Source of the DNA: Desulfocapsa sp.
GTDB lineage: Bacteria > Desulfobacterota > Desulfobulbia > Desulfobulbales > Desulfocapsaceae
DNA length: 64,000 nt
Assembly: GCA_022712895.1 (NCBI GenBank)
Contig: JAFLJS010000051.1
Coordinates: forward strand, 101,927 to 165,926
Direction: 5' to 3'
A program made the position numbers and the translations under genes. This document shows positions 23,092 through 38,585 of this stretch, piece after piece. Within the stretch, counting starts at the first letter, position 1. Each line of letters opens with the position of its first letter. The notes under the pieces are model-generated. The model was given only the letters and a program-made list of their open reading frames with translations, was not told the DNA's origin and searched no databases.

Positions 23092-25026
23092 TTAGGAGCT
23101 GGACTTTCGTAGAATACGAATATCGCCCACCCGAATTGTCAGCTTAATACGATCAAAGTACTCAAGCAGCGGAATTGAGAACTTACGGGTCAAGCCGGTA
23201 AGGTTCTTAAAACGTGGGGCATCAATCTCCCCTTCTTTCTCGATAAATGCCGTTACATCCTTGAGTAATACCTCAATGGCTGCAGCATCATAATAGAGTG
23301 TCTCACTCACCTTCAATAATTTGTCTTCACGTTGCAGCAGGGCAAATACTTCTTTCACCAGCGTTTCAGGGTAATCACTGAACTCGTCCATGGTTTCACG
23401 AATAGTGGCTGTTTTTAAACCTTTCCCACGGTACCATTTTTCGAGATCCTTTTGCAATTTCCTTTCATCTGCCTGCAGAGCAACCTGATGAGATGCTAGA
23501 CGCACTACAGACTCTTCCTGCACAATCAAATCTTTTTTCTGCAATTCATTCAAACAGAAATGAAACACTTTTCCATCCACATTATGACCAAGACCTGAAC
23601 GGAGTTCTTCTTTGGAAAGCCCGAGCTGCATGGGATTTTTTACATGATATATCTCAAGATTTTTTTGCAGCACCTGCTCGACACCATCGCTCACACTCTT
23701 GGCAAGATAACGCTGTGTTGTGGAATCAACAACCACAATTTTCCTTGAAGAGAGGGGTGCAGAAATCAGTTTTTTCAACTGCTTGGCAAAAACCCCAAGC
23801 CGTACAGCCAACTCATCAAAAGTAAGCCCACTGGTGCCTCGTTCATTCAGAAACAAGAGAATCTTATTCTCAACATTCTCATCATAGAGAATCTGGAAGA
23901 CTGCTCTATTTTTATCCCGGTCCGGCTCGTTCAAACGTTTACGTTTCCGGGGTGGCATATTACCAAGAATTTCACCTCCACCGATGGTCGCAACAGGTGA
24001 GTAGGATCTTACCACATATCTGTCACCGGGCCAGCAACTCACCGGCTCTTCAAGAAGAAGTTGCACACCGGCAGTGTCCCCAGGTTGCAAGACATCACGA
24101 TCAAGCAGAGAAATCCTGCCCATAACCTCAATGGTTCCGAGATGTACCCGAACACGTGTTCTGTGTTTCAGGGGTTTGCTAATGGATGCCAGGTAGAGAA
24201 AATCACAATCAAGCATATACCCAGGAGACAGACAGCCAGGAGTTGCCGCAACCATGCCTCTTGAAACGGCTGCAGTATCAACACCCTGCAAGTTGATAGC
24301 AGTACGGTGTCCGGCTTCTACAGTTTCCACATCTTTGGAATGGACCTGAATACCTCTCACTTTGGCCGTCATATCCGATGGGTAAAAACAGAGTTCATCT
24401 CCAATGTTCAGTCGTCCGGACATTGAGGTTCCGGTGACAACCGCACCAAAACCTTTTATGGCAAAAATCCGATCCACAGGAAGACGAAAAGGTCCGTGCA
24501 CTTCCTTGAACTGCTGCCCAGCAACAAATTCATCAAGCAAAACTTTAATGTCATCGATTCCGTCACCAGTGGTGGAGGAAACGTGCACAAGAGGTGCCTC
24601 TTCTAAAAAACTGCCTTCACAATATTCCCGGACTTCCTCGGTGACCATCTCCAGCCACTCTTCTTCCACCATATCTTTTTTGGTGATAACAATGATTCCC
24701 TGTTTCACACCTAGCAGACGGCAGATCTCAAAATGCTCTTTAGTCTGGGGCATAATGCCTTCATCTGCTGCAATAATGAAAGCAACAAGATCCATACCAG
24801 TGACACCGGCTACCATATTTTTGACAAATTTTTCATGGCCGGGAACGTCTACAATACCAAGACGATGGCCGCAGGGAAGATCGAGATAGGCAAAACCCAG
24901 CTCAATGGTGATACCGCGTTTTTTTTCCTCAGCCAGACGATCGGTTTCAATACCGGTCAACGCCCGGACAAAACTTGTTTTACCATGATCAACATGGCCT
25001 GCTGTACCGAGGACTATTTCACGCAT
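23092..25026 (-). CDS. selB: Selenocysteine-specific elongation factor SelB
   Basis: [54 protein letters not shown]-terminal winged-helix region. Confidence 0.95.
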
Positions 25027-34758: not shown

Positions 34759-35844
34759 TCAGTCTCCGAGGCAGACACCGATGTCTCTGGCGGTGTACAC
34801 TTTGTCACTGTTCACATTTACTTTTTTACGCGATTTCACAGCATCAGCCAGCGGAACAGATCCCATATGTGGCGATTTCAGCGCCACCATATGGCCAAAT
34901 GTCCCTTTTTCGACAAGACGAACTGCAGCTGCACCAAAACGCATGGCAAGTAAACGGTCAAAGGTTGTTGGAGAACCACCACGCTGTAGATGCCCAAGCA
35001 CCAGAGAGCGGGTATCTTTACCCGTTCGCTCTCGTACTTCTTTTGCCACCCATTCCCCCACACCACCAAGGAGCAGTTCAGAGCGCCCCACTTCTCCTCC
35101 CCCTTTACTGATCACCTCCCCACCTGCTGCCACGGCACCTTCTGCCACTACAATGATGGCATAATTTTTTCCATGCAACTCATTATCCATTATCTTGGCA
35201 CACACTTTTTCCATGTCAAAAGGAATTTCGGGAATCAGTAGCACATCAGCGCCACCGGAAATTCCAGAATACAACGCAATCCAGCCGGAATCACGCCCCA
35301 TGACCTCAACCACCATTACCCTATCATGAGATTTTGCAGTGGAATGCAGTTTATCCAACGCTTCTGTAGCAGTGGATACAGCAGTATCAAAGCCAAAGGT
35401 TCGATCTGTTGCTTCCAGATCATTGTCAATGGTTTTGGGAATTCCAATCACTGGCATGCCCATCCGTGAAAAACGCTCAGCAATCTCAAGACTGCCGTCA
35501 CCACCAATAGCAATATGGCAGTCAAAACCCATTCTGTTAAAATTATCGAGTATCTTTTCCGAGATATCGACTACCTTTACTTCTCCAGCATAGTTCTCAA
35601 CAGGCATTTCAAAGGGATTCCCCTTATTTGTAGACCCAAGTATAGTACCACCGGTTGCATAAATATCTTCAACATCCTCAGTTCTCAGACGGCACATCTC
35701 GTCTCGATCAAGAAAGCCTTTATACCCACTGCGGCTGCCATAAACCTCCCATCCTTTTCTATAGCAGGCGTGTACCACAGCGTATATCACTGCGTTGAGT
35801 CCCGGTGCATCGCCACCACCTGTAGAGATCATAATTTTTTTCAT
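34759..35844 (-). CDS. pfkA: 6-phosphofructokinase
   Basis: GGGDAPGLNAVI, IGGDGSL, GIPKTIDNDL, VEVMGRDSGWIAL. Confidence 0.92.
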   Translation of the reverse strand: MKKIMISTGGGDAPGLNAVIYAVVHACYRKGWEVYGSRSGYKGFLDRDEMCRLRTEDVEDIYATGGTILGSTNKGNPFEMPVENYAGEVKVVDISEKILDNFNRMGFDCHIAIGGDGSLEIAERFSRMGMPVIGIPKTIDNDLEATDRTFGFDTAVSTATEALDKLHSTAKSHDRVMVVEVMGRDSGWIALYSGISGGADVLLIPEIPFDMEKVCAKIMDNELHGKNYAIIVVAEGAVAAGGEVISKGGGEVGRSELLLGGVGEWVAKEVRERTGKDTRSLVLGHLQRGGSPTTFDRLLAMRFGAAAVRLVEKGTFGHMVALKSPHMGSVPLADAVKSRKKVNVNSDKVYTARDIGVCLGD

Positions 35845-36118
35845 AAAACCATACCTTTTGCTTCACATCATCGTCAATATGTGCATACTATTCTATAGAG
35901 AACAAATGACTTTCCCGTTCATTCTCTGTTTTTTTTGAATGTTACTTGAAATCTTTTCTCAGCATAGAGATTGACTTCTCTTTATGAGTTATTATGATTG
36001 TAGCATATTACTTTCACAGAAGGTGAGTAGTTTTTCACTCTGTGAGTGATACTCAAGTGACATACGAAACAAAGTTTTAACACTTTGCTATTTTTTTGAT
36101 TATAAAAAGGAGGATTTC

Positions 36119-36463
36119 ATGTCTGATTTTACAGTTACAGACCAGGCCGTAGAAAAACTCAAGGAATATTTGGAGCAGAATAATATCAGTTCTGCACTTC
36201 GTATTGCCTTGATGCAGGGCGGCTGAAGCGGCCCATCACTGGGACTGGCTCTGGATGAGCCAAAAGACAACGATAAAGTTTACGACCAGGATGATCTTAC
36301 ATTCTTGGTTGAAGAAGGATTAATGAGCACCTGCGGTACAATCACAGTTGAGTTTATCGACGCTGGTCCACGCTCAGGTTTTGGAATTACTTCCACCAAC
36401 TCCATTGGCGGTGGAAGTGGTGGTTGTTCCTCTGGATCTTGCGGATCCGGTGGTTGCGGCTGA
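36119..36463 (+). CDS. HesB/IscA-family selenoprotein (in-frame TGA read as Sec)
   Basis: ATG 36119: MSDFTVTDQAVEKLKEYLEQNNISSALRIALMQGG[TGA 36224-36226]SGPSLGLALDEPKDNDKVYDQDDLTFLVEEGLMSTCGTITVEFIDAGPRSGFGITSTNSIGGGSGGCSSGSCGSGGCG*; AAGGAGG SD upstream; homology-like signal continues in frame past TGA; SECIS-like hairpin 36246-36262. Confidence 0.88.
36246..36262 (+). promoter_or_regulatory. Candidate bacterial SECIS hairpin
   Basis: TGGCTC-TGGAT-GAGCCA, 6-bp stem and 5-nt loop with G near loop start, about 20 nt after the TGA. Confidence 0.6.
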
Positions 36464-36493: not shown

Positions 36494-36531
36494 ATGGCGC
36501 AAAGAAAGCTTTCCTGCTTTCTTTGCGCCAT
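36494..36531. terminator. Perfect 16-bp hairpin downstream of the selenoprotein gene
   Basis: ATGGCGCAAAGAAAGC-TTTCCT-GCTTTCTTTGCGCCAT. Confidence 0.7.
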
Positions 36532-36779: not shown

Positions 36780-38585
36780 ATGCCGCCACACTATTTTTCC
36801 CGATCCACACACAAACGGTTGTCAGCAAAATCTTTATCTTCTCTGTCCCTGACAGGTTTTGTCGCCTTACTGCTCCTCTCACCTCCCTTTGCCTTTGCAG
36901 GTACTCCCCTGACTGTCGAAGTTTCAGGACTTGAAGCACCCCTGCAGACAAATGTTCTTAATTTCCTCGATATTGAGAAAAACAAAAGCAACGAAGAACT
37001 AACTCCCCGCTGGATACAGCATCTGCACAAACAAGCACCGCAGGAAATTCGCGAAGCACTCTACCCCTTCGGATATTACCACGCAACCATCCAGGCAGAT
37101 CTTACAGAAAACCATGGCAAATGGCTGGCCCGCTATACCATTGATGCCGGCAAACCAACCTTTATAACCAAACACAATATTCGATGGACAGGTGAAGGCG
37201 CTACTCACCCCGTATTCCAGGAATCCATACAAAAACTCATAAACAGTTCTAACGGGCAAGTAATTCATGCGAAATATGACGCAGCCAAAAGCAACTTCCT
37301 GAACGTTGCCCTCTCCGAAGGATATCCACAGGCCAAAATAACCAAAAGTGAAATCCTGATTGATCTCGATGCCCACAGCGCTGAATTAACGCTTCTCATG
37401 GACACTGGTCCCCTATACTATTTTGGTGATATCCATTTTCTACAGGATTTTCTAGATCCAGAGCTCCTGCAAAAGTATGTTTCCCTAAAAAAGGGACAGC
37501 CATACTCTCACGATGCCCTTCTCGAGTTTCAACAGAACCTTATAGCTTCAAATTATGCACGTGAAGTCACCCTCACTCCCCTATTCGCCAAAACACAGGA
37601 CAAACTGTTACCAATAGAAGTGCTGATGCAGCCGATTCTTCCCCATAAACTCTCTTTTGGGCTCGGGTACGAAACAGATATCGGTATTCGTGGATCAGCA
37701 CGCTGGGAAGATCGTCTGCTCAACAGCTATGGTCATCACTCGGATTTATTTTTCAAACTCTCAGAGAAAGAAGGACTGTTTCGCGGCCAGTATTATATCC
37801 CGGTAAACAAGGCTCTTACTGATAGTTGGGTATCGTCAGCTGGTATAGAATACGAAACGACGCCGGACACAAGCAGCAGAACTGTAGCTCTGGAAACCGC
37901 TTTTGTACGAAAGAATCTCGAAGACACTCATTTCTACAAGGGATTTCTGCTGGCTTCATACGAATATTTCACCATTGGTGATGATCCACAAGTAGGTACC
38001 AAACTGTTTTCCATTGGCACCACCATCCGATTCTCAGATCTGGAGGATAACATCTATCCACAGTCCGGATATTCGTTCTTCTCTGATCTGCGAGGCGCTT
38101 CTGAGATACTGCTGTCAGATACCACCTATACCAGACTGCATCTTAAAGGCCGTTACATGTTCGGTCTTGGTGAAAATGGACGGTTAGACAGTCATTTTGA
38201 ATTTGGATCAGCCTGGGTTGATGACTACAATGTCTACCCGACATCATTACGTTTTTTTGCAGGTGGAGACAGTTCTGTCCGTGGCTACAAATATGAATCC
38301 CTGGGGCCCATGGACGATGACGGCAATATTATTGGTGGTAAGCATGTTTTCAGCGCAAGCCTTGAGTATGACCACAGAGTGGCAAAATCCTGGGTTATAG
38401 ATATTTTTGCCGATGCTGGAAATGCTTACGATGACACCTTAGACAAGGTATTCATTGGTTCCGGTTTTGGTTTTCGCTGGCTGGCGCCTTTTGGTTCTCT
38501 TCGCTTCGATTTTGCATGGCCTGTGAGCGAGGGCCTTACCATTAGTGCCGCACGAATTCACATTGGATTTGGAGCAACATTATGA
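36780..38585 (+). CDS. tamA: TamA/Omp85-family outer membrane protein
   Basis: POTRA region and C-terminal barrel: LRFFAGGDSSVRGYKYESLGP, SLEYDHRVAKSWVIDIFADAGNAYDD. Confidence 0.9.
   Translation: MPPHYFSRSTHKRLSAKSLSSLSLTGFVALLLLSPPFAFAGTPLTVEVSGLEAPLQTNVLNFLDIEKNKSNEELTPRWIQHLHKQAPQEIREALYPFGYYHATIQADLTENHGKWLARYTIDAGKPTFITKHNIRWTGEGATHPVFQESIQKLINSSNGQVIHAKYDAAKSNFLNVALSEGYPQAKITKSEILIDLDAHSAELTLLMDTGPLYYFGDIHFLQDFLDPELLQKYVSLKKGQPYSHDALLEFQQNLIASNYAREVTLTPLFAKTQDKLLPIEVLMQPILPHKLSFGLGYETDIGIRGSARWEDRLLNSYGHHSDLFFKLSEKEGLFRGQYYIPVNKALTDSWVSSAGIEYETTPDTSSRTVALETAFVRKNLEDTHFYKGFLLASYEYFTIGDDPQVGTKLFSIGTTIRFSDLEDNIYPQSGYSFFSDLRGASEILLSDTTYTRLHLKGRYMFGLGENGRLDSHFEFGSAWVDDYNVYPTSLRFFAGGDSSVRGYKYESLGPMDDDGNIIGGKHVFSASLEYDHRVAKSWVIDIFADAGNAYDDTLDKVFIGSGFGFRWLAPFGSLRFDFAWPVSEGLTISAARIHIGFGATL

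Follow-up and report, generated by a model that had tools for sequence, protein, structure and literature searches.

A predicted selenocysteine-containing HesB/IscA-like protein, overlooked by standard ORF calling, in Desulfocapsa

The window analyzed here is a 64,000-nucleotide stretch of a Desulfocapsa sp. assembly (GCA_022712895.1, contig JAFLJS010000051.1, positions 101,927 to 165,926). Profile searches place at 36119..36463, on the forward strand, a hesB/iscA-like selenoprotein gene of 114 codons including one for selenocysteine (Sec), assigned to NF038090 (IscA_HesB_Se), and the AlphaFold model of its product matches IscA/SufA. Direct reading identified a Shine-Dalgarno sequence, AAGGAGG (36107..36113, +), 5 nt ahead of the ATG at 36119; a GGAGG-like site also precedes the ATG in most relatives. 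The frame closes with TGA at 36461-36463 and contains a single internal TGA, the candidate Sec codon, at 36224..36226 (+), which is codon 36. With this TGA translated as Sec, the product is MSDFTVTDQAVEKLKEYLEQNNISSALRIALMQGG-U-SGPSLGLALDEP...GGGSGGCSSGSCGSGGCG (114 amino acids), with ALMQGG-U-SGPSLGLALDEPK as the Sec-spanning peptide. Because the TGA interrupts and splits the frame under table 11, the gene is absent from the standard ORF list. These readings agree with the original prediction, which had described a frame with a good Shine-Dalgarno sequence and one in-frame TGA that the ORF track had missed.

We rejected the terminal TGA (36461-36463) as a second Sec codon; relatives carry TGA (90), TAA (18), or TAG (5) there. 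A single mRNA would use UGA as both Sec and stop; of the 113 Sec genes whose stop codon is complete, 90 end in TGA.

The flanking genes in the window lie at 34759-35844 (-) and 36780-38585 (+). Of 58 related loci, 48 have a divergent 6-phosphofructokinase gene (pfkA) upstream and 44 have clpB downstream on the same strand. In the source genome, clpB is located elsewhere, and its place is taken by tamA and a tamB-like gene. No linkage to an isc, suf, or nif operon was seen in the loci examined, no metal resistance or transport genes were seen among the common neighbors, and a plasmid search returned distant matches only. A perfect 16-bp inverted repeat with a 6-nt loop (36494-36531) begins 30 bases past the stop codon, with no T run after it.

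To assign the family, we ran profile searches with Cys substituted for Sec. The protein scored 134 bits with NCBIfam NF038090 (cut-off 85) and 31.7 bits with Pfam PF01521 (26.3), in line with the HesB/IscA-like similarity first proposed from the sequence. Its score with TIGR01911 (HesB_rel_seleno) was 52.4 bits, under the cut-off of 66.35, and equivalog scores fell far below their cut-offs (IscA, 39 vs. 150.6; SufA, 32 vs. 136; ErpA, 32 vs. 117). By these scores, the gene adds one more member to a known HesB-like selenoprotein subfamily, NF038090, that has its own NCBI model. TIGR01911 is listed in an earlier account (PMC13188914), and HesB-like proteins were counted in another (PMC1794560).

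Comparison across the order revealed a relative in 190 of 196 genomes, and most best matches among those listed carry exactly one TGA. At the nucleotide level, every stop codon at the Sec column of relatives is TGA (145/145, with 0 TAA and 0 TAG). The non-stop codons at this column specify Cys (43) or Ser (2); as both Ser cases are divergent fragments from one genome, all full relatives have Sec or Cys. Removal of duplicates left 115 Sec genes and 32 others. Across this order, the Sec form is close to universal. The column is that of IscA Cys35: in a structure alignment, it coincides with the conserved Cys of IscA (PDB 1s98) and of AQ_1857 (1nwb). In A-type carriers, this is where the first conserved Cys stands, and the original prediction had likewise put the TGA at the conserved Cys of the family.

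A candidate SECIS apical hairpin lies downstream of the TGA at 36246..36262 (+). The sequence TGGCTC-TGGAT-GAGCCA forms a 6-bp stem with the loop UGGAU, with 19 nt between the TGA and the stem and 25 nt between the TGA and the loop. The published bacterial model has a loop of 3-9 nt, a stem of 4-16 bp, 16-37 nt from UGA to loop, a G in the first two loop positions, and a minimum free energy of at most -7.5 (PMC13188914). The hairpin fits this model throughout, as the loop has G at position 2 and the 53-nt stretch folds at -14.9 kcal/mol (z -2.3) with the hairpin present in the minimum-free-energy structure. An Rfam search of the region gave chance matches only, all under the gathering score. 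We do not claim a CCC/GGG stem within 36233-36243 as part of the SECIS, as two of its three pairs fall at codon positions 1-2 of near-invariant residues; the third pair forms in 83%.

Since the hairpin also codes for a nearly invariant peptide, GLALDE(P), base conservation within it proves little, and the wobble positions provide the test. Of 110 distinct Sec sequences, 108 preserve the complete set of six pairs, compared to 1.7% expected when codons are redrawn synonymously; the complete set is present in 1 of 19 Cys genes. In Sec genes, GCT (Ala, codon +8), CTG (Leu, +9), and GAG (Glu, +11) are each used in 115 of 115, and codon +7 ends in G in 114 of 115. Cys genes that also encode LGLALD use GCT in 6, CTG in 9, and GAG in 7 of 19 (Fisher p for Sec vs. 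Cys genes, with relatedness ignored, 7e-14, 3e-10, and 1e-12, respectively). At other positions, these Sec genes encode Ala with GCC (257), GCT (171), GCA (167), and GCG (89), and Glu with GAA (466) and GAG (204). Pairwise gene identity is 95% in the SECIS codons vs. 61-68% in the flanks. At the level of sequence, the hairpin is under selection together with the UGA, which is strong evidence for selenocysteine insertion. The stem and loop about 20 nt downstream, originally proposed as a SECIS from the sequence alone, are thus upheld by both the published model and synonymous-site conservation.

The source genome encodes the Sec machinery, with selA (613 bits), selB (384 bits), tRNA-Sec (selC, 77.3 bits), and selD (373 bits) all over cut-off. 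As had been predicted, selB, the Sec-specific elongation factor, lies within the window at 23107..25017 (-) (TIGR00475, 384 bits; converted from G000:C48:125033-126943), and the check for selA, selC, and selD, which had been set as a possible refutation, found all three. The selD gene (G000:C44:78532-79473, L019) itself contains an in-frame TGA and probably encodes a Sec-containing SelD.

Loss of the machinery was seen in one genus, g53 (four genomes), in which none of selA, selB, and selD is present over cut-off and only Cys forms occur. Matches to tRNA-Sec in this genus are marginal (best 47.1 bits vs. a gathering score of 47), and we count it as one loss event. In a second genome of the same genus as the window (G041), the search found selB, selC, and selD (with TGA), but neither selA nor the Sec form. 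We set aside co-loss in this genome, because selB, selC, and selD are retained and at least one fetched stretch contains 8000 masked N, which may explain both absences.

Together, these data support a model in which the UGA is read as Sec in a HesB-like selenoprotein, with Sec replacing the first of the conserved Cys residues in the A-type carrier fold; from sequence comparison, we put the probability of this reading at roughly 95%. That the locus is instead a pseudogene or a sequencing error, with the TGA a plain stop, would account for a frame that is broken under table 11 and missing from the standard ORF list, but this is refuted by cross-species conservation, as 115 distinct genes, from this order and from outside it, carry the same TGA, with both protein and hairpin conserved downstream of it.

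Cys forms do not share a single origin. On a protein tree built with the Sec/Cys residue masked, they need 8 changes, at least 4 by the starred branches, and we rejected a single origin on this basis. Sec and Cys genes stand in tandem in genomes G117, G185, G066, and G160 and also at L089, L094, and L095. Loci noted for such pairs, which have arisen several times, are L117, L118, L106, L120, L089, L094, and L095. Some Cys copies (L118, L177, and L106) retain a SECIS-like relic hairpin. A relic SECIS in a Cys HesB-like gene of Desulfitobacterium was already reported (PMC1794560), and the relics are a known phenomenon that recurs here several times.

The protein ends in a Gly/Cys tail (36419..36460, +) in which the alignment places C103, C108, and C113 at the position of the C-terminal CGC. 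The AlphaFold model has a mean pLDDT of 80.7, with most of the tail below 50, and the tail is probably disordered. Foldseek matched the model to IscA, SufA, and IscA with a [2Fe-2S] cluster (1r94, 1s98, 2d2a, and 1x0g; E 1e-5 to 2.5e-7). In a 49-row alignment, Cys/Sec at position 36 and C113 are invariant, and C103 and C108 nearly so. The CGC motif itself is absent; a Cys-rich tail, mostly C-x4-C-x4-C, occupies the same place and aligns with the GSCGCGSSFSCG end of AQ_1857 (1nwb). In each of the 111 complete Sec forms, the last 26 residues contain three or four Cys, mostly in this spacing, which argues that, by alignment, the tail is the counterpart of the C-terminal CGC of A-type carriers and not an extra. 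The original prediction, which had regarded the tail as an unusual additional site, was mistaken on this point, as the tail is present family-wide.

How could such a protein act? SelB bound to the hairpin would deliver Sec-tRNA(Sec) at the UGA, giving an A-type protein that is small and probably forms oligomers. Iron or an Fe-S cluster could then be bound by the Sec selenolate, along with two or three of the Cys in the flexible tail, before being handed on. The most likely function, at about even odds, is that of a putative Fe or Fe-S carrier in which a selenolate serves as ligand. The fold, which is that of IscA/SufA, and the Sec and tail Cys, conserved as in A-type carriers, favor this role; the low IscA, SufA, and ErpA equivalog scores, the replacement of CGC, and a position outside isc, suf, and nif operons at the loci examined count against it. 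We found no published experiment on this Desulfocapsa protein. PMC11097638 cites the identification, by mutagenesis and 75Se labelling, of the HesB-like selenoprotein of Methanococcus maripaludis; according to that paper, nitrogen fixation was unimpaired in a disruption mutant, and the function of the protein was called unclear.

More tentatively, the selenoprotein might be a redox enzyme or a thiol- or peroxide-reactive protein built on the A-type fold, with Sec36 acting together with C72 or a tail Cys. Most uncharacterized selenoproteins are expected to serve redox functions (PMC13188914), the C72 column holds Cys in 101 of 111 Sec forms, and the neighbor in most relatives is clpB, with isc, suf, or nif linkage not seen. 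However, ten Sec genes have T, A, or V at the C72 column, the motifs UxxC, CxxU, and TxxU were not found in the protein, and the modeled fold is that of Fe and Fe-S binding carriers.

It is unlikely that the selenoprotein handles some metal or metalloid instead of Fe-S, binding or trafficking it through soft ligands provided by Sec and the Cys-rich tail. This role would fit the presence of three or four tail Cys in every complete Sec form, and metal-ligand roles have been proposed for Sec in some families (PMC13188914). In contrast, no linkage to metal resistance or transport genes was seen among the common neighbors, and the ligand set resembles that of IscA.

A more elaborate version of the carrier reading, which we consider improbable, is a Sec-dependent metallocluster or metal carrier in Desulfobulbales whose distinct ligands combine one selenolate with the C-x4-C-x4-C tail, and which is tied to the disaggregase ClpB and has tandem Cys copies for times of low selenium. 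If so, those copies would be backups under selenium scarcity.

HesB-like selenoproteins entered the lists two decades ago and still have no established function. This order offers an order-wide Sec set, codon-level selection on the SECIS, and natural Sec/Cys tandem pairs; with the set and the pairs, one can test directly what Sec adds to an A-type carrier. The absence of this gene from the standard ORF list is a further reminder of what such calling overlooks.

Compared to known systems, the protein is a typical member of NF038090, with the model matched to its end, including the start of the tail, and nothing of note different. With TIGR01911 it shares the fold and a Sec within a U-x-G-P motif (here USGP), but it scores under the cut-off of that family, which is a sister subfamily of its own. 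Finally, it shares with IscA, SufA, and ErpA (PDB 1r94, 1s98, 1x0g, and 2d2a) the fold, in full matches with TM-scores of 0.63-0.67 on the query, and the position of the first conserved Cys, where it has Sec. Unlike these proteins, it has Sec for Cys, C-x4-C-x4-C for CGC, and a Pro after U-x-G, and its equivalog scores are far under the cut-offs.
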